In this document: piece after piece, positions 2,235-60,063 of the stretch
Numbering within the stretch: position 1 is the first letter of the stretch
Layout of the letters: each line of letters starts with the position of its first letter
Source: Saksenaea vasiformis B4078
Taxonomy: Eukaryota > Mucoromycota > Mucoromycetes > Mucorales > Saksenaeaceae
NCBI GenBank assembly: GCA_000697055.1
Contig: JNDT01001273.1
Location: 1 to 64,000, forward strand
Length of the DNA stretch: 64,000 nucleotides
Direction: 5' to 3'
The notes under the pieces: generated by a model
Told to the model about the DNA's origin: nothing
The model's input: only the letters and a program-made list of their open reading frames with translations
The model's database searches: none
Translations under genes and position numbers: made by a program

Positions 2235-3748
2235 ATGACCTTGTACGACACGACAGAGAAATTATCATCGAATGTAATAAGACAAACTCATTTCTTCTAT
2301 GCGTGTTCAACAAATGTTTTTGACAGCTTACTCAATTGTTGACGTACGATGTTGTCAACCGATGTACCCGAGGTATCCATTTTGACGGATACACCGCCGA
2401 GTACTCTGCAATAGATATTGAAGAGGGAAAGGAAAATGTTCTAAGGCTCATTCAGACCCATCCTCCCGAAAATCCATTTGTGGAACATACGTGTACGAAT
2501 TTCATCCAGGCGGATACTTTCATGAACGAACTATTGATGGATGACAGCTTCCACCGCTCGCCGTCCAGAACGTTTGCCTATGATGCTGCTGCAGAAGTTA
2601 TCTGCAGTGCGCGTAAACAGTGCCAACCGACTTTTGGAGAAATCTCGGTTGAATACACCGTTTCGTATGTTTCTTGGGGAGAAGTAAGTGACAAAGCAGA
2701 CGTTTACCGATGGTTCAATTCATAGGACTCCTACAGGTACACCTGTCTTCGGAGTATGCCAAAGCAACGGACCGTTTCAGGAAAGCTGTGCAAAATGCTT
2801 TGAAGGAAGAAGCCAATAAGAAGAAGTATGAAGCCCTGCAAACTGTATTTGAGCGATTTGGATATTACTATCCGTCGAAAATCTTGCTTGGTATAGTGAT
2901 TAACATACGCGTAACGCTATATAACTCCCTCCATGGTACAGGTGGTCTACTCGCTTGTAAGAAAGAGAGTTCAAAGGTGCAGAATGGGAACGCGTGCGAA
3001 CTGGAAATTGAACGTAACACGGTCCGGTCCATTCGTCAGATAGTAGAAGACGTCGCGGATGTAATCAAAAGTTACAAAATCATTGGTAATATCCATCACG
3101 TATCTGTAACACTTACCGGACAAATTTATGGTAGGTGGTGACCCTGGATTATTTTTCGTGGATGGACCAGAAAGCTGGAAACAGTCCACTACGTCCGAAC
3201 CAGCCATCATCCAGTTCAAAGAAATGAAGCAGATATATAGCATTCTTGAAGATAATGAATGGCTTCAAGTAGAGGAGGTTTACGACAGGGCATTTTCCAA
3301 TAACGAGCTTGGACATGCGGTGGAAGAGAACCCCGCTGCGGTTTTCAAACAGTGTGTTAGAAGCAATGAGAGTATAGGAGACAATGTTGAAGACATAAGT
3401 TGGTTACAAGTTCTGGACCAGGGCAGCAATAGAGCCGTAGACAATGGACACGAAAGCTTGCAGAACGAACCTGACAAAGATATATTCAGCGATGACTCTG
3501 ATGATGACAGAAATACCAATGATATGAACATACGATCCAACGTTGTTAACCGAGACACTGAAGTGACATCAAACCATTCTAACGGTCTACCTGACCATGA
3601 AGGTATTTTGCACGGAGAAAAGCAAGACGCCCATCCGAGTAACAAAGCAGCCAATAACGAAAATGAACATGAACAGAGGCTGTCCAGCGATGGGGATCCT
3701 GAGGATGACGGCGATATTGACCATACCGACAGTAGAAAAAGCAGATGA
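2235..3748 (+). CDS. MACPF-like domain protein with acidic linker (likely 5' part of a MACPF-Sel1 gene)
   Basis: A five-exon model is supported by splice sites and continuous frame: 2235-2273, 2327-2683, 2737-2890, 2942-3085 and 3135-3748, with introns of 49-53 bp. ATG at 2235 is the only start that joins in frame to exon 2. Two features resemble MACPF (perforin-like fold) proteins: an aromatic-rich FERFGYYYP segment followed across the third intron by an LGG motif, and an IIGGDPGLFF...W segment created by the fourth splice, the GGD...W pattern usual near the end of the domain. The last exon is a long acidic Asp/Glu/Asn-rich linker ending in TGA at 3748. Just beyond it, remnants of the same linker style and Sel1 units continue in shifted frames, so the gene probably once ran into the array ending at 4777. 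MACPF proteins may be pore-forming or act in other ways; activity here is unknown. Family assignment is by motif only. Confidence 0.5.
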
Positions 3749-4006
3749 TCACAAACCTAAAGATGCGAAAGATGGACGCGAAGATACACGGAGTCATGAA
3801 GGAGGCGTAGACATGGACAGCAGAGGTGATATTAGCCTGCACGAAGATTCGATTGATTGAAACGATGAATGGAAGCAGTTCGAGCTTGGCGAGAAATATT
3901 ACCGCGGAATAGAGGTGGATAAATACTACGTCAAGGCAATCGACTGGTTTAAAAAAGCAGCCGATCAGGGAAATTCTGATGCAGAAACTACAGTAGACTT
4001 GGAGAT
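3749..4006 (+). pseudogene. Broken junction between MACPF-like part and Sel1 array
   Basis: Coding-like sequence continues after the stop at 3748 but not in one frame. The reading frame changes at the A5 run near 3736-3740, an in-frame TGA lies at 3858-3860, and the frame changes back near 3994-3998 inside a recognisable Sel1 unit (about 3879-4000). I looked for an intron that removes these lesions and found none with compatible phases. The region therefore looks decayed, or carries assembly errors. Confidence 0.5.
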
Positions 4007-4777
4007 ATGCACCGATACGGACGAGGTGCAGATCGAGACGATAAGAAAGCAGTTGAATGGTACAAAAAGGCGGCGTATCAAGGAAATGCCAATGCACAAA
4101 CCAAACTTGGGTACATGTACTGTAGCGGGCGTGGTGTAAATCAAGACAGTATTGAAGCAGTTGAATGGTACAGAAAGGCAGCAGATCAAGGACATGGAAT
4201 TGGACAATATAATCCTGGATGTATGTATCGGTATGGGTGCGGTGTGGAACAGGACAAGAAGAAAGCGAAGAGATTGCTCTCCAAGGTGTATGAATGGTGC
4301 AAAAATGCAGCTGATCAAGGAAATGAAGATGCGCAAATCACACTCGGATATATTTACTATAATGAAAAGTACGACATCAACCAAGCAATTGAATGGTATC
4401 GAAAAGCGGCGGATCAAGGAAATGAAGAGGCGCAAGTTCGATTGGGATATATTCACGAATGGGAAAAGAAAGACATCGATAAAGCAATTGAATGGTACCA
4501 AAAAGCGGCGAACCAAGGAAATGGCGATGTACAAGACATGCTTGGAGATATTTACTACTATGAAAAGAAAGACATCGACAAAGCAATTGAATGGTACCAA
4601 AAAGTGGCTGATCAAGGAAATGAACGCATGCAAATCGAATTTGGAGATATCTACAGACATAAAATAGGAGACATCGACAAAGCAATCGAATGGTACAAAA
4701 AAGCAAAGCGTAATGGAAATCGGTGGGGGGAAATTATGCTTCTTACTTTAAAGAAAGAAGGGTGGAAAATTGTTTAA
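4007..4777 (+). CDS. Sel1-like repeat protein (3' part of second locus)
   Basis: This 256-residue open frame contains about seven Sel1-like units. The first units are classical, with the GRGVNQD-type loop (RYGRGADRDDKKAVEWYKKA, CSGRGVNQDS); later units are the shortened 33-residue type found in the first array. The C-terminus (LKKEGWKIV) matches that of the first locus (LKREGYKID). The ATG at 4007 lies within a Sel1 unit, so it is probably not the ancestral start; the frame most likely was joined to the MACPF-like exons at 2235-3748. If expressed alone it would be a small solenoid adaptor. Confidence 0.6.
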   Translation: MHRYGRGADRDDKKAVEWYKKAAYQGNANAQTKLGYMYCSGRGVNQDSIEAVEWYRKAADQGHGIGQYNPGCMYRYGCGVEQDKKKAKRLLSKVYEWCKNAADQGNEDAQITLGYIYYNEKYDINQAIEWYRKAADQGNEEAQVRLGYIHEWEKKDIDKAIEWYQKAANQGNGDVQDMLGDIYYYEKKDIDKAIEWYQKVADQGNERMQIEFGDIYRHKIGDIDKAIEWYKKAKRNGNRWGEIMLLTLKKEGWKIV

Positions 4778-5864
4778 AACGATTGACGGTTTTTATTTTA
4801 TTTTATTGTTTTCTTAGTCTCTGTATTCCATTTGTTTTTGACGTTGTGTCATGTAATACGAAAAGAAAGACGTACATTTTCCTTGGCATCTGTGCTCATC
4901 ATTTTGTCCAGTCTTTGAATAAAAAGCATATGGTTTGCTGTCATGTGTCCATTCACTGCTTCATCCGGCAGTGCTTATCCATACAATTTATATTGCAAAT
5001 AGCAATGGAACGCGGCATTCATCTTTGGAGAAGTAATGTGCTTTGGATCACTTGGCATAGTTGAAGAGGCGCGGTTGAAGAAGGAAACCAGAAGTGGTAA
5101 AGGAATCGGTAGCTAGCGTGGGGCGTGGAGAAGGTACGGGAAAGAGAAACAGATAAGCGTTTCCGTAAGGTGTTAGAGGTGCAGCGCGGAGGAGAGAAGG
5201 ACTTGACGTAGGGAACGTAATGCCCGATGGAAGAGTTTTCCAAGGAAAGGCCATACTAAGGCCGAATTTTCTGTACCTAAATAGGAAACTCTACAGCAGG
5301 ATACTGCAGTTCCCTCAAACTCAAATGTTTCTGAGAGCTAACGGAATATAATGCCCGTTGTCGTCACTGAGCTGGTCTGAGTGATGAATGCGGTGAAGTA
5401 AGGCGCCCCAGAAAAGGCAAAGCGACCCGATTGACAACGTTCATTGAGTCATAAAGTATCTCGGACAACGCAATGCTATGAACAAAAAGTAGCTTAGAAG
5501 TAGCAGTACTTATTAAACGTCAGATTGTTCTAAATGATGGATATATTACAAAATAGCTAGTGGTTTTGCATGAAATCCGGATGATAGAGTGCCCATTGGA
5601 ATATTCCCTGTAAATTTCGACTACTATGTCTCCAATATGTATATCTATCCGCGCCTCATCCATAGAAGTACGGAATAACTGCCGTGAATGACTACGTTAT
5701 TGTCATTACCGCAGCGCATAGACATAGCCGCAGTATCAAAGGCACATCATATTTGGGACACAGATGAGTCACAGATGAGCCAAAATGACAGAGGTAAAAC
5801 AGGTACATGTTCCTATTTTTAGCCGAAGGATTTTTCTTCCTTTCTTGAACCACAGTGCAGCATA
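4778..5864. other. Intergenic region, no gene recognised
   Basis: About 1.1 kb between the Sel1 array and the RNA ligase. The first 200 bp repeat the 3' flank of locus 1. Open frames here are short and show no family features. The ligase promoter should lie at its right end, but no clear TATA element was recognised. Confidence 0.5.
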
Positions 5865-7126
5865 ATGACCAATCCCAGCGACAATGACCTTACTATACCA
5901 GATCTTCAACGATCAGCAGATGATCCCGATGATCATGACGTGATTAAGCGGCTGTATCAATTCGCGGACTCATATAAGAAGGAGCTTCGCCATAAGACAT
6001 ACAATGTAAACGATTCCTCGTGGGTGAGCTGGACCATGCGCGAGAGTGTTTACAGAAAGAAGAGGAACCAATGTCCCACCATGGCACGCGGCCTCTTTAC
6101 GACGATGCGTAAAAATAAACATGTGATAGTTGCACGGGGATACGACAAGTTCTTTAACGTCAACGAAACCACAGCTACCCAGGTAAATAGTAGCCCTAAA
6201 TACCAGCGACCATGCCCTTATGCTATTCCTAGTGGCATGAACTAGAGAAAGAGACAACAGGACCATATGAACTGACGGCAAAAGAAAACGGGTGTATTAT
6301 TTTTATAGCGGCAGTCCATAAGGATGCTGTAGTCGTGACATCAAAGCATTCGATCCCGGATCCCAAAGACGATGTGACCGCACATGGTGGTGTAGGCTAT
6401 CGCTGGTTGCTCAAGCACCTCAAATCAGCGGGAAAATCCGAGCAGGATCTTGCTCGATGGCTACTTGATAAGGACGTAACGTTGGTGGCAGAGGTACAGG
6501 TACCAACGCACCCGGGAGTAGGTACTGACGAAGGTATATAGCTTTGCGATGATGATTTTGAGGAACATGTTTTACCCTATTCCGAGAAGGATCGTGGACT
6601 CTACCTTCATGGTATCAATTACAACACTGCCGCTTTTCATACGCTTCCTATTGCCACGGTTCATCAAGTAGCCAAATCATTTGGCATGCGAACTGTTACA
6701 TACACCACGCATTCGGATATAAAAGCCATCAAAAAAGTGACTGAAGAAATGCAGCGTGCAAAGCTTTATGAAAATCGTGAAGTGGAAGGAATAGTGGTTC
6801 GCTGCAAACGTGGTGGGGAGGATTTCTTTTTTAAAATCAAGAATGAACACTATCTTATTTATCGAGAATACCGCGAAGTTACCAAGGCATTGTTAAACGT
6901 ATCATCCAGTGGAGTAGTCAGCATAAGAAAAGACAAGCATCCAAAGATCACGTATGAGAAGACGAGATACTATATCCAATGGCTGAGCCAGCGCGTCCGC
7001 GATCATCCTGAATGGTTCAAGGACTATGCGAAGAACAAGAACATCATAGAAGTCCGACAGAGATTTGAAAAGATATGGGAATCCGGGCATTTAAACTTTG
7101 GAGGAGATCCGGCTGAAAATGAATAA
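5865..7126 (+). CDS. RNL: Monofunctional tRNA-splicing RNA ligase (Trl1 ligase-domain homologue)
   Basis: Three exons: 5865-6182, 6233-6493 and 6542-7126; introns of 50 and 48 bp join in frame to give 387 residues. The protein aligns by eye with the adenylyltransferase domain of fungal Trl1: ARGLFT and IVARGYDKFFNV near residues 70-100, the lysine-nucleophile motif I as KENG just after the first splice, LYLHGIN, motif IV as VEGIVVRCK, and motif V in FFFKIKNEHYLIYREYREVT. It would seal 2',3'-processed exon ends of tRNA (and possibly HAC1-type mRNA) with ATP. Ascomycete Trl1 is a single ~800-residue protein with kinase and phosphodiesterase domains; this protein stops after the ligase domain, matching the separate ligase described for Mucorales. 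End-healing enzymes must be encoded elsewhere. The 3' end faces the Fanzor gene, 34 bp away. Confidence 0.88.
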
Positions 7127-7160
7127 AGACATGACGGTCATGCATTACAGTATCTGAACC

Positions 7161-10100
7161 CTAGGTCTCGTCTGTGACTGAAAAGAAGGGAGGTCAGGAT
7201 CGGGCTTAATGCCGTGTTTGCTTACTCTTACCTGACTTAGAGTTCCTAATAACTCCCGTCATGGCGACAGGTCCCGGTCCACTTAGCCTACATTGAAGAA
7301 AAGACATTAATTACAGAAAGCGAAAAACCATATACGTACTCTTTGTAGAGCTGCTGCGGAGGGTTCACGCACCTACGTAGCAAGTGAAATAAGTATAAGC
7401 AAAAGGATCCTGAGCAATACGTACCGATGGTAGGTGGCGCCGGGTACAAATGGTTTGCCAGCCGATAACTTGCTGGGATTGAATGGTGACAGAGTGCTCC
7501 TGTCGGCAGAGAGAAGATTGCTGGCGGATGCAAGGCCTATGGCCAGGGCTGCTTGTATGTCCCGATTTTGTGTCGTGTATCCAGCTTGATACGCGACGCA
7601 ACCTGGATTCACGCATTGTGATGCGCCGTTCACCCTCATCATTTTCCACTCGCCGTTTTTCTTCCTTCGGGCCTTTGGTCTCTCGACTCGTTCAAAACAA
7701 TAAACACAGAGCTGCGAACTTCTATGTTCGTTCGTCATAGATATTGGTACATGTCTGCGATGGCGTTTTCGGACCCATGCTCCACCTCGTTTGATGTGGC
7801 CTTTTAACCGGGAGCCAACTCCAGTACCCTGTGTTCCGATGGCCATGATAGGCATGACCTTTTGTACGCCACCTTTATCTCGGGTCACAGCTGTTTTGAC
7901 AAGCCTTCTCTCCTCCGCAGCAACTTGGTCGTAAACACGATCGGTGAATAACTGCTGTGTGCGTTTCTCGTGGTGCGCACGGTTCGAATGATAGAACTGT
8001 CGTAATTCATTGCGACAGCTTCTCTTCACCTAATATCAAATAAGATCAGATTAAAAGTAGGACGAAAACAAAAGAAAAATACCGCTTGTGACGCGATAAC
8101 CTGTTGAACTGTGATGGCGGCGGCAGACGAGGATTCTTGAAGCTTTTTTTCTATCTCATGAATCGCTGGTTGCCTCTTGAGTACAGAATGAGTATCGTAT
8201 TGTCCGATTACTGTTGGTACTGTACCTTTTTCCTCCTTTCGCGTTTCTTGCGAAATTTCCGACAAAAAGTCTTCTCCTCAAGATAGCCTGCCTTGATTTT
8301 TATCGGCTTGGGTAGCTTCAGCATTTCTTCAGTGATAGATGGAGTGGGGTGCGTACCACCGAATTTTTGATTGTAAAAGTCCAAGTGCAGAGCAGCACGT
8401 TCCGTCGTAATTGGGACAGTCGTCGCCAAGACTCTCAAACCGTAATCTGTTCCACTAAAAGTGATAGCCTTCTTGGAAACTTGAGAGGTTTCTTGACATA
8501 GGTTTCCGATATCTAAATACTGTGTACTGGCCTCGCAGCCTGGACGATCCCAGCTTTCGGGTTTACACATCTTAATCCTTTCTTTTTCCTCGTCTTCTTC
8601 GTCTTGATCATCGTTTTCTTGCTTCTTCTTCTCTTTCTTTAGTGTTTCAAGCCGCTGTTTTTAAAACACCTTAGTAGAATGCTCACTGTTGCGTATGCTT
8701 TCTTTCAGTCACCTTCTGCAAAATGTACCGTTCTCTGCGCTCGTCTGCGAGCTCTAATCGTATCCTGCTTAAATCGTGCAGCATCTTTGTACACTCCAAT
8801 CTAGATGCTTTTAAATCTTGGTAAGCCTCCGTCTGATGCTGTTTCTCTGCTGTTTCGGTTGTATGCGCTGCTTTTCGCTTCCGCTTGTCTCGTATTCTTC
8901 CCTGACTATTAGCCTTTCCTTTTTGGTAAACCTTGGTCCGAGATTCAACAACGTCTTCTATTTTCTTGAGATTTTTCTTGCGTTCCCTTTCAGCGGACTC
9001 CAACAGCTTTATCTTTCCCTTTGCGTCTTGCAGGGAAGCCGAGACTTTTGATATATCTGCATGCGATTCGTTCTCAAAGGAGGCAAGACTACCTTCTCGC
9101 CTGGATTTTTTTCTTGTCTCCTCGTAGTGAGATACCTCTATTTTCCGCCCTTTTTGAACATCTCCATCGATAACGGCTATTCCATGTGGTGTCACGGTGG
9201 TTCTCCAGCGAGGTTCTAACCCGCGATCGTGACATAGTTTCACAATTTTGTCTTTGTCAAAAAATGAACAAATAGTATCACACTTATTTGCTCGTGCTTG
9301 CGCCATGTTGTCAATTGTATTTCCGTCGGATTTGTATAGATCATATCGTGCTGATGTGGAACCAAATATCTCGTACATTGCCGCTGAATCTAGAGGAAGC
9401 GAATGCACGGAAGCGGGAGTGATCATGGGACAAATAGCCCCAGCAAACTTGGAGTATCCCACAGCGCAAAGAATTGCGTTTGATAGGGATACGAAACGAA
9501 GCCGCAAGGGAATTGCAGAGGTTGATCGTCCCTGGGGGATGTATGGCCGGAAAGCGTTAGCAAGCGTCAGCACAACATCTATTTCTCCCTTCACAAGTTC
9601 GTCATCGTCGTTCCACAGTTGTGTTACGTCGTTAGCTTTGACTTCCTCGTCTATATCTGCGGATAGTAATAGCTTCTTTGTGACAGCCTGGATCCTCGTT
9701 AGTCTTCTTCGGCTAGGCTCTTTCTTCACTTGTTCTGCCGCAGCTAGTTTCTCTCCTCCCTCTTCCTCTTCCTCCTCTTCCTCTTCCTTCTCAATCGCTT
9801 CTTCTATTGCCTCTTCGATCCCCTCATCCGTCATTCCGCGTACGTCAACAGTTTCAGACAGATCCTCAACTGTCTCCTCGAGCTGAATATTCTGTTCCGC
9901 GAGTAAGTATATCGATAATACTGTGTGCGATGTTACCTGTTTTTCTTCCTTTTTATCTTTCTTTTCGTCTTTCCTAGGTCTATACGTCTCTTTCAGACGC
10001 TCTTCCAGTCGTACGATTGCATCGCCGCATGACGCCTCGCGGCGTAACAGTATCGCTCTCCGATTGCCATTTTCTTCTTTGTTTAATTGTTTTTTCAGTC

Positions 10101-11435
10101 GTGCCAAGTCCTTGCGTTCGCGCTTTAACCTCCCTTTTGTCTTGCTTCTGAGCTGTTTCCTTTTTCCTTTAATGCTCTTTGATTTCTGTTCTTTCTTCTC
10201 CTCTTTCTCTTTCGCCTTTTTCTCTGATACTTTCCGGACTTTAGCCTCCCGTTCAGGCGTTAAGTTTATTTTCAAAAGGATCCGAAGCAAATGATTGATT
10301 GATTTGTGGTAAAGTGGGCCTTCCCACATGTTTTTCAGATTCGTAGCGTATTGCCTTAATTGCTGGTGCATGACAGTACTCAAGCCTGCCGGTGGTTTTG
10401 GTTGTTCTGTCAGTGCCTGGTGTTCAAGAGCCGACCAGACTTTCCGCTTTCCCGCTATATATGATTGTCGACCAAAATAGTTTGAGTGGATGAACTGCAA
10501 ATGCGCCTCGCTGAAAAGGTTCATGAATTCGTCGTTGTTCTTCTTTGGTAACATCTTGAGATACGTCGTGGTGTTCTGAGGAAGCGGTAATATAGGAATG
10601 AGATTGGAAAATTTCGTGGCATCTTGGTCATGTACGTGTGCTTTGGGTATCACGGATGAGATATCGAAGCCTTCATGCTCCTGTCTCTGTCCCAAAGCTG
10701 CTGTCTTCGATACCGGGTCTAACAGCACAGAGCACCCAATATAGTGCAGCATCGTAGCATGTACTACCGCAGCAAGGTCGCTAATGTAATCAGTCGCATG
10801 CTCTGCGGTGGCGGAAACGGTTTCAAGAAAGTCATTTTTCATAGTTTCGTCCAAGTCTTGCCTAAGGATAGAAGATATGCGGACTGAGACGGTTCTGAAT
10901 CTGTTGTCTTCATCCTCTGCTTCTTCTTCAGCTATATCCTCGGAACCTCGTTCTCTGGAGCTTCCAGCTGATACTCCAGCCCTTGTCGATTTACTCTCGT
11001 TGCTGTTCCTTGTTTTTATCACGGTGCTATCAAAGTTGTCAATAGCGTACTTTCTCCAAAGCCCTCCGATTGCTCCTCTATCAGCATATCTGGTGGAAAG
11101 AACACGACGAGTTGTCCCAGGAGGCACGTTTAGGCTATCATCCGCCTCTTCAAGGGACGATCGAGGCAATCGATCTGCTTTTTGTAGGCGCTCCCGTAAT
11201 TCTTGCAGTTTTTTTTTTCAATCTTTTCTTCTCTTTTGCGAGCCGACTGTCTGCGTGTCTTGTTCGCAGATCTTTTCCTGGGCTTTTCTTCAATTTCTTT
11301 CGAGATCAAGTTTGTAAGATGTCGATCGAAGAAGCTATCTAACGCCAGCAGCGCTTCATTCAGGGACAGATCCACTTGAGCTTTCCTTTTTCTTTTTCCT
11401 CGCGTGCCACGCAATTGTGGCAGTGGGACAGTCAT
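7161..11435 (-). CDS. Fanzor (eukaryotic TnpB/IS605-OrfB-like) RNA-guided nuclease candidate
   Basis: Exons from 5' to 3' on the minus strand: 11435-8713, 8654-8226, 8175-8083, 8029-7425, 7372-7340, 7287-7232 and 7177-7161, about 1318 residues. Catalytic features: RuvC-I GTDYGLR (Asp codon 8445-8447); a glutamate in NEHRSSQLC (7727-7729), the relocated RuvC-II position typical of Fanzors; a zinc ribbon CVYC...CVNPGC; and RuvC-III TQNRDIQAA (Asp 7559-7561). The segment CDTICSFFDKDKIVKLC occurs in related fungal proteins as far as I recall. The first ~900 residues are a Lys/Glu-rich extension with a long Glu run, unusually large for the family. The 11435 start and the main frame are joined only if the A10 run (complement of 11209-11218) is read with one extra base, so it is either a sequencing error or a frameshift lesion. 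The AAG-ended intron 8176-8225 is the weakest junction. Known Fanzors bind a non-coding guide RNA; activity here is inferred. Confidence 0.75.
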
Positions 11436-12416
11436 AACTAGAAAAAATCGCTAGATTTTGTTAGCATCGCCTCCAACAATAGTATTTAGCAGGTATTCAC
11501 CTTTGATTTGTTTGTGTGTATTATTATTATACGAAAGAAAAAAAATTGATATGTGGAAAGTGAGGGGAAAAGGAAAGGGAGAAGTTGTTGTCAGTATTCA
11601 ATGACCCAGATCGTGGGATTTTGTTGAAAGCTTTAACAGTCCCACGCATAATTGATCAACACTACCTATCCATAAAATGAAACGAAAGCAGGAATAAAGT
11701 ATTCACCATTCATGGAACTAGATAAGCATCAAGACAAGTTCAACGCAAACAGGGAAACAAAAGCAAAGGACTCAAGTGCTCCAATCACAGATATATTTCC
11801 GGAATGAACGAAAACTGGTATATAATCTGATTATTAACATCAATCGAAGCAGATGTTATGAACATGGATAGATTACCTCAAACATTGATGCAAAGGTATA
11901 TAAGCTGTTACGTGACTATTGCCACTTTTTCATTCAATTGCTTATTTTTTGTAGTAAGTAAGCAAGCATAAATGTCCAAATAGGAGTTTGGAACAAAGTG
12001 GAGTAGAAACGGGAATGTTCATTGATAAAGTTAGAAGAGCACTGAAAGGTCTTTCTGGATAGTAACAGTTACATCAGCTATATGCTTAATACATTACCTG
12101 GAAATTGGCGGTAGACTCAAGAAGAAGCAGTGCTATAATGAATTTTAGTGTAAAAGTTGCTAACATAAATGCCGTAAAGTCTATTTACAGGAATAGGGAA
12201 ATCACGCTGTACAAGGACATGGAATAAAGTTTTACATACTATTTATGAGAAATGGGTACCTTCCAAATTGTTGGTTTACGCGTAAAATCGCAAGATATTT
12301 GACAGCGAGAATTTAAAAAGTTCCCGTAAGTGTTTCCTTCTCAACTTGAATTTCAGTGAGTCTCAAGTCTCAGTCTGGGCTTAGCCCAAAAAGATACCTT
12401 CACAGTACTTCCCACC
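11436..12416. other. Divergent intergenic region between Fanzor and FANCE-like genes
   Basis: About 1 kb, AT-rich, with no recognised gene. A TATATAAG element sits at 11897-11904 on the plus strand, but the first ATG after it is followed by a stop within a few codons. Promoters for both flanking genes should be here. I saw no terminal inverted repeats marking a transposon end. Confidence 0.45.
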
Positions 12417-59132: not shown

Positions 59133-60063
59133 CTATGATTGACATTGAACGAAGGACCCTCGGTTGCCACGATGTTCGAAGAGTAATCGTCTGTAAATAA
59201 AGTTTTTCGTTCCACTCTTGAGACATGTACCAAAACATTTAGCAGAATGAGAAACAAAGCCTTTGAAGTCACTTAAATATAAGCTATCGCATGCCTCACT
59301 AATTCTAGTCATCAGCGATCCTTTTTCGAGAAGTTTATTTCGCTTAGCTTTGCCTTTGGCAACGGACCATAACTGCTCAATTGGATTCAGTTCAGGTGAA
59401 TACATGGGAAGATATACATGCCGATATCCTCGAGAGCGGATATACTTTCCTATAACAGTTGAGCTATGAGTAGGAGCATTATCCATGACAAGGTAATGCC
59501 CCTTCACTTCTGGATACTTGTCCATTTTATCAAGAGTAGCTTTAAAAAGGCTCATATAATGCCCTGTCCCTGTTTCTGTGCTATAACCATGAGTTTCACG
59601 TCCAAGCTTTCTCTCTCTGCTATACCCTGGAACCCTCAAGCTGATATTAATTAAGTCAGTGGCTGATATTGTACCCAGAATCGATGATCGATGTTGTGTT
59701 CGCTTTAGTTGTAGGCACTGTAACTATTGCAGGAATTCCCTTCTTTGACCAAGTCATAGTTTGCTTCAAATTAATATGGAAGGCTGATTCATCAAGAAAA
59801 ACGCAATTTGTTGTAAAGCCCAAATCAGTTTGCTGCAGCTTTTGGACCTAATCACACCCTGGCTGAACTTTTCCCTCATTATTTCTTTTAAGCGGATGGA
59901 ATTGTGCCTGTTTAATGGACTGAGTTTTCATGAAGTTATAAACAGTACTACTAGAGACCCTAAAAATGACAACTGCTATAATAAATATTGACAATATGGC
60001 TCTTTGAAAACGACAATTAGGTTTCTGCATTGCGAGGTCGTCTTCCAAACAACCGACAATCAT
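59133..60063 (-). pseudogene. Tc1/mariner-type DDE (DD34E) transposase, inactivated
   Basis: Read on the minus strand: HTH end VSSSTVYNFMKTQ (about 59950), then NCVFLDESAFHINLK (first Asp, codon 59791-59793), TMTWSKKGIPAIVTVP, ISLRVPGYSRERKLG, YLVMDNAPTHSS (second Asp, codon 59481-59483) and YSPELNPIEQLWSVAK (Glu codon 59376-59378). Second Asp and Glu are separated by 34 residues, the Tc1 spacing. Two lesions are visible: a TAG at 59848-59850 where related proteins, as I recall, have Trp, and a 7-bp tandem duplication (ATCGATG twice) at 59680-59693 that shifts the frame. The final 168-residue frame is intact but lacks the first catalytic Asp. Family closely resembles DDE_3 transposases common in Mucorales. 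Confidence 0.8.

Follow-up and report, generated by a model that had tools for sequence, protein, structure and literature searches.

The closest described systems to the locus reported here are the Fanzor1 proteins PpFz1 of Parasitella parasitica (Protein Data Bank (PDB) entry 9cf0) and SpuFz1/Spu-1 (PDB 8gkh), the Fanzor1 elements of other Mucorales, and the IS607-family elements that carry TnpB. This study concerns a 64,000-nucleotide stretch of Saksenaea vasiformis B4078 (the window; assembly GCA_000697055.1, contig JNDT01001273.1, positions 1 to 64,000 of the forward strand), and all positions are given within it. We consider it likely that the window carries a transposable element of about 5.25 kb, the sole recognised gene of which encodes a giant Fanzor1-derived protein of about 1300 amino acids (aa) that performs RNA-guided cutting with a scaffold from the right end of the element.

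PpFz1 is a mucoralean Fanzor1 with the alternative Glu and a C-x-N-x2-C ribbon, both of which are found here, and its target-adjacent motif (TAM), described as 5'-ATN-3', is compatible with the AARTAC flank of the window family (PMC11423790). It also has an FRI insertion, and most Fanzor1 proteins are reported in the same source to have 600-700 residues (PMC11423790). The solved PpFz1 chain is shorter, with 1259 residues including a maltose-binding-protein tag, whereas the window family has DYG at RuvC-I and extends much further on the N-terminal side. SpuFz1 likewise has the alternative Glu and the ribbon, and Spu-1 is described with a right-end omega-RNA scaffold, a guide from the flank that runs 14-15 nucleotides (nt) beyond the scaffold, and ghost copies (PMC10432273); a candidate counterpart of this arrangement is presented below. 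However, SpuFz1 is described as a 638-aa protein from a single open reading frame (ORF), within an element that has terminal inverted repeats and a scaffold past the stop codon (PMC10432273), whereas the window element has eight exons, no visible inverted repeats and a stop codon within the candidate scaffold.

The Fanzor1 elements of Mucor circinelloides, Rhizopus and Phycomyces also belong to Mucorales, and MCi-2 and MCi-5 are described as having no inverted repeats (PMC3627910). Compared by description only, they differ from the window element in their target site duplications, which are 6 to 12 base pairs (bp) and not a dinucleotide (PMC3627910). The IS607-family TnpB elements are described as recombining at matching dinucleotides and as having the alternative Glu in their Fanzor-related clade, but they encode a TnpA recombinase (PMC10711439), and no such enzyme turned up in this genome (0 matches to PF00239).

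Family assignment of the encoded protein

The gene lies on the minus strand, with its start at ATG 11435 and its stop at TAG 7163-7161, exactly where the original prediction, made from the letters of the sequence, had placed it. The motifs quoted in that prediction are all present, namely the RuvC-I Asp (GTDYG), the alternative RuvC-II Glu (NEHRSSQLC), the CX2C..CX4C ribbon cysteines, the first of which is separated from the Glu by six residues, and the NRD of RuvC-III. The alternative Glu is invariant in the family profiles A1 (10 members) and A2 (6 members) and 26 of the 27 readable genomic copies retain it; the RuvC-III Asp is retained by 25 of 26 (one chance match left out). Among the genomic copies, the catalytic residues are altered in C466 and in the copy of C441 at 219612. 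The position of the Glu and the ribbon fit Fanzor1.

A family profile of the C-terminal exon, compared with the PDB at E<=1, matched PpFz1 (E=1.8e-4) and SpuFz1 (E=0.007), together with two unrelated chains, SRP54 (0.044) and kinesin (0.8); no TnpB, Cas12, Fanzor2 or other RuvC nuclease was found at this threshold. The Cas12f1-like_TNB domain (PF07282) matches 3 of 10 family members, and paralog L034 scores 28.4 bits where the curated cut-off is 26.3. The proposal of a Fanzor-like nuclease is supported by these matches, although the profile comparison suggested along with it succeeded for the C-terminal profile of the family and was borderline for the window sequence alone, which as a single sequence matches SpuFz1 weakly (E=0.0068). 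The protein probably belongs to a giant, divergent lineage derived from Fanzor1.

Several observations weigh against this placement. RuvC-I reads DYG, not DPG, in all 23 readable genomic copies (33 stitched sequences scanned with Asp and Gly fixed and the middle residue free, 10 without a match), and DPG is reported as near-exclusive to Fanzors and part of the Fanzor fingerprint (PMC10711439); this mark is lacking, whereas the alternative Glu, the ribbon, the RuvC-III Asp and the similarity to solved Fanzor1 proteins are present. The window protein and its exons have no Pfam or NCBIfam match, and the longer profile A2, compared with the PDB at E<=1, recovered no Fanzor and yielded five matches that are chance-like or of coiled-coil type. 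Both AlphaFold2 models were poor (mean predicted local distance difference test scores 41.8 and 48.5), the alignment depth being too low, and they speak neither for nor against a RuvC fold with the three acidic residues adjacent. Further PDB searches gave no match at E<=10 for the first large exon part, and a chance-like match only for P0001, a hypothetical protein of Apophysomyces ossiformis (EC973_007782, 1285 aa). A missing single-sequence match in the PDB is weak evidence, because L003, a fragment of ordinary Fanzor type that this genome also contains, finds no chain at 1e-3 with phmmer, yet is recognised by Pfam.

DYG together with the alternative Glu is also described as the combination of a bacterial TnpB clade, and D-Phi-G, with Phi including Tyr, as the usual RuvC-I of bacterial TnpBs (PMC10711439); the gene could have come from that clade by an independent transfer. 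We regard this origin as very improbable: every solved RuvC relative that turned up is a Fanzor1 protein, one from a mucoralean and one from a chytrid, which share the C-x-N-x2-C ribbon, and the relative P0007 of Apophysomyces sp. BC1021 carries DPG. In P0007, DPG stands alongside the alternative Glu, which suggests that the motif changed within the lineage.

Gene structure, copies and N-terminal part

Alignment with ten other copies of the same genome (C264 partial) gave an eight-exon, seven-intron model as the best fit, with about 1303 residues when exon 1 is counted. The seven introns measure 45-58 nt (9936-9892, 8712-8655, 8225-8176, 8082-8030, 7424-7373, 7339-7288 and 7231-7178). The first of them, a 45-nt in-frame GT..AG stretch, had been overlooked in the earlier model of seven exons and about 1318 residues, the latter figure presumably being 1303 plus the 15 residues of this stretch. 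Between its matching columns the paralogs have 39-43 nt, which is not a multiple of three in eight of the ten; because their frame changes there, the stretch is likely an intron.

The predicted 33-, 56- and 17-nt exons at the 3' end, which are flanked by GT..AG introns of 52-54 nt, are supported by the comparison. Among the 11 aligned copies, window included, the 33-nt length is kept in 10 (exception C264) and the 56-nt length in 9 (exceptions C441 and C458). The annotated model of P0001, which is continuous, ends CVNSSRKLCEELREPGPVAMTGVIRTYASVTEEF and the window protein ends CVNPPQQLYKELSGPGPVAMTGVIRNSKSVTDET, with SVTEEF in the former corresponding to SVTDET in the latter. The micro-exons are therefore supported by the paralogous copies and by the P0001 annotation as a predicted part of the gene, and over-reading of the 3' end was ruled out, since lengths and frame are conserved.

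The claim of one spliced frame did not hold throughout. The frame of exon 1, which opens at ATG 11435, differs from the 844-codon frame that begins at 11217, and the two meet in a run of ten A (11218-11209); this is the one break, and the spliced frame from 11217 to the TAG is open over 1230 codons. Six of the ten other copies read through at this run (C441, C160, C458, C531, C604 and C264), and four are frameshifted in exon 1 by indels of their own (C472, C282, C643 and C270). Judged from this comparison, the window copy as assembled is broken once, by a mutation or an assembly error, and it is probably inactive as assembled because of this frame break.

Across this genome the C-terminal exon has at least 149 matches, counting its own (best 150 of 183 candidates scored), and PF07282 has at least 137 (best 150 of 388). 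Ordinary Fanzor-type ribbons (e.g., L003 and L008) coexist with the giant lineage in this one genome, and two more giant families, B and C, are present (L026/L024/L027 and L032/L035/L036), each with its own sharp right end. In a database of 5.8 billion sequences, where the first two of three protein searches scored the best ~8000 candidates, at least eight related proteins were found: four Apophysomyces species or isolates account for five, Gryganskiella for one, and two are nameless. All eight lack both a functional name and any precomputed Pfam domain. P0001 is 62% identical over query residues 500-1230 and has DYG at RuvC-I; P0003 and P0005 look decayed, with the Glu or Asp altered, and some relatives have GRD for NRD or lack the RuvC-III Asp. 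Viral contigs gave 23 pattern matches with no relative among them, and, among the open-licence papers listed, none describes this lineage as judged by its title and the opening of its abstract.

About 960 residues stand ahead of RuvC-I. The N-terminal extension is long, as had been claimed, but it is not merely Lys/Glu-rich, since its alternating acidic and basic runs are accompanied by conserved blocks, with 54% identity to P0001, and by constraint. The ratio of nonsynonymous to synonymous substitution rates (dN/dS) against C441, the single copy used because dS is saturated against the other nine, is 0.27 overall (1222 codons, with four stop-containing codons left out) and 0.33 for 11217-9937. 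Against this one copy, the N-terminal part is also under constraint. No solved relative of it was found in the PDB. A likeness to the 1731-aa Gryganskiella protein P0002 was dropped as not significant: a forced alignment gave 21%, the best E value with BLASTP was 0.05, and phmmer found no match.

A constrained additional N-terminal part, the replacement of DPG by DYG and an element without a transposase ORF would also suit a Fanzor-derived protein that does no RNA-guided cutting and has another task, e.g., as a DNA-binding accessory of transposition, with the N-terminal part as the active portion. Nevertheless, this is improbable in our judgement: the alternative Glu and the RuvC-III Asp are retained in the readable copies in the counts given above, the right-end stem and the flank motif are retained as a guide-RNA system would require, and D-Phi-G with Tyr is described as usual in bacterial TnpBs (PMC10711439). 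RNA-guided cutting by a Fanzor1-derived protein is the reading that we prefer.

Element ends and right-end pairing

DNA similarity between copies stops sharply on the right at 7150, after GAGACCTAGGGTTCAGATAC (20 sequences), and on the left at about 12402-12411 (Table 1). The right-end pattern, with up to two mismatches, has 27 matches in the genome and none for the reversed control, and TG opens the right flank in 19 of the 27. In all eight two-ended copies, the dinucleotide after the left TAC (or TGC) equals that after the right GATAC (six TG, one AG and one CA), and 1.8% of permutations reach eight matches. Inspection of 21 copies on the left gave 12 with a recognisable end, the other nine being left out, and the AARTAC left flank is present in 10 of these 12; to the disadvantage of the argument, the left core was placed by eye after the data had been seen, and this count is descriptive. 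Terminal inverted repeats were rejected, as none were seen by eye in the end alignments. The C548 copy (L062) is internally deleted with both ends retained, and none of the at least 149 C-terminal Fanzor matches (best 150 of 183 candidates scored) accompanies the right ends on C402 and C620.

No coding-strand ORF longer than 48 aa lies between the left end and the gene, and no transposase or serine recombinase ORF was found in the element. The TnpA of IS607 elements is a serine recombinase. The PF00239 serine recombinase domain, absent from this genome, is present in 10 of 14 controls. The insertion has the matching dinucleotide core of the IS607 type, and no serine recombinase was detected with it. 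DUF3504 gave no match in the genome, but its control also matched nowhere. Of five Phage_integrase matches in the genome, four lie on contigs that carry no right end of this element, and the fifth, on C271, is about 80 kb away from such an end.

In the 20 of 27 right ends long enough for alignment, RNAalifold gave a 6-bp hairpin followed by an 18-bp stem that closes at the element boundary. In this alignment, 97.3% of the pair cells form pairs, compared with 23.6-44.7% in slid controls, and the energy over the last 120 columns is -15.7 vs -3.4 +/- 2.0 for column shuffles. The observed number of cells paired was reached by 4 of 500 shuffles and the covariation score by 3 of 500. The last 60 or 90 columns alone gave no signal over shuffles, because the partner strand lies further upstream. 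A hairpin of other letters occurs at the same position in family B (5 bp, 3 of 3 copies) and family C (4 bp, 2 of 3), and its recurrence in two other giant families is suggestive support for a scaffold.

This candidate scaffold takes in the 3' end of exon 7, the intron after it and the stop codon, and the pairing may instead reflect a DNA feature, such as a subterminal inverted repeat or a recombinase binding site, or a coding constraint. The location of part of the pairing within coding exons would agree with this, and other results also speak against a scaffold: a two-sided change is seen in one stem pair only (5 sequences), the count of two-sided pairs is no better than in shuffles (452/500), and single-sequence folds of the last 130 nt in seven sequences are mostly like shuffles (z 0.97 to -2.67; window -0.9; family B 0.97, 0.18 and -0.08; family C -1.72, -0.95 and -2.67). 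However, the 3' strand of the stem passes the stop codon and extends to the penultimate base of the element, the slid controls remain far less paired, and families B and C have a short hairpin at the corresponding position. A DNA or coding origin of the pairing is thus possible but unlikely, and a guide-RNA scaffold is the explanation carried forward here.

Table 1. Positions of the mobile element, its gene and its candidate functional sites in the window.
Feature	Positions	Strand	Remarks
Whole mobile element, 5253 bp	7150..12402	-	DNA similarity between copies ends there
Candidate omega-RNA scaffold	7150..7271	-	hairpin 7271-7266/7260-7255 and 18-bp stem 7251-7230/7171-7151
Exon 1	9937..11435	-	frame break at A10 run 11218-11209
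Exon 2	8713..9891	-	last stretch of N-terminal part, IDGD-containing upstream domain, coiled segment; preceding 45-nt intron likely, from paralogs
Exon 3	8226..8654	-	RuvC-I GTDYG; catalytic Asp codon 8447-8445
Exon 4, 93 nt	8083..8175	-	splice model from paralog alignment
Exon 5	7425..8029	-	arginine-rich helix, alternative Glu 7729-7727, zinc ribbon, RuvC-III Asp 7561-7559
Zinc ribbon Cys codons in exon 5	7708-7706, 7699-7697, 7615-7613, 7600-7598	-	
Exon 6, 33-nt micro-exon	7340..7372	-	length conserved; counterpart translated in P0001
Exon 7, 56-nt micro-exon	7232..7287	-	length conserved; counterpart translated in P0001
Exon 8, 17 nt with TAG stop	7161..7177	-	11 nt left before element end
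Left core dinucleotide TG	12403..12404	-	equals dinucleotide following right end; 8/8 two-ended copies match
Left-flank (target) motif AAGTAC	12405..12410	-	consensus AARTAC; candidate TAM

Proposed mechanism, neighbourhood and implications

Under the preferred reading, a transcript would read through the right end of the element, and its last ~122 nt would fold as the scaffold, with the short hairpin first and the boundary-closing stem after it. The genomic flank from at or just after the core dinucleotide would then serve as the guide, which is expected to start at about 7149. The protein would bind the scaffold RNA and cut the restored empty donor site beside AARTAC, and repair would reinstate the element, by which copies would be retained to the benefit of the element. 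As far as can be seen, the element does not itself encode the enzyme that moves it, and no such enzyme was found. More speculatively, and with little weight given to the idea, the window family may form a separate giant Fanzor lineage in which 3' splicing of a single transcript balances the nuclease message against the guide RNA, and in which the several hundred additional N-terminal residues, being under constraint, may supply a function that ordinary Fanzors obtain from another source, e.g., recombination at the dinucleotide core.

Concerning the neighbourhood, a T4 Rnl1-type RNA ligase (PF09511) at 5823-7126 (+), in three pieces that span nearly the whole profile, has its stop 23 nt from the right end of the element. 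Past the left end, a plus-strand ORF with a nearby ATG points away from the element. A DDE_3 transposase fragment (PF13358, E 4e-17) at 59133-59723 (-) marks a second mobile element in the window. A fungal MACPF-like domain at 2692-3141 (+) is a weak match below the cut-off, and the repeats at 3980-4777 (+) may be of Sel1 type, which they resemble.

The dinucleotide ends of the element form an insertion signature like that of IS607, and no serine recombinase was detected in this eukaryotic genome. Although the gene is roughly double the length given for most Fanzor1 proteins, its N-terminal part is constrained as well, as measured against one copy. The anatomy of the right end leads to a testable prediction of a guide RNA and a TAM. 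As the RuvC-I of this lineage lies outside the published Fanzor fingerprint, surveys based on DPG could miss it.

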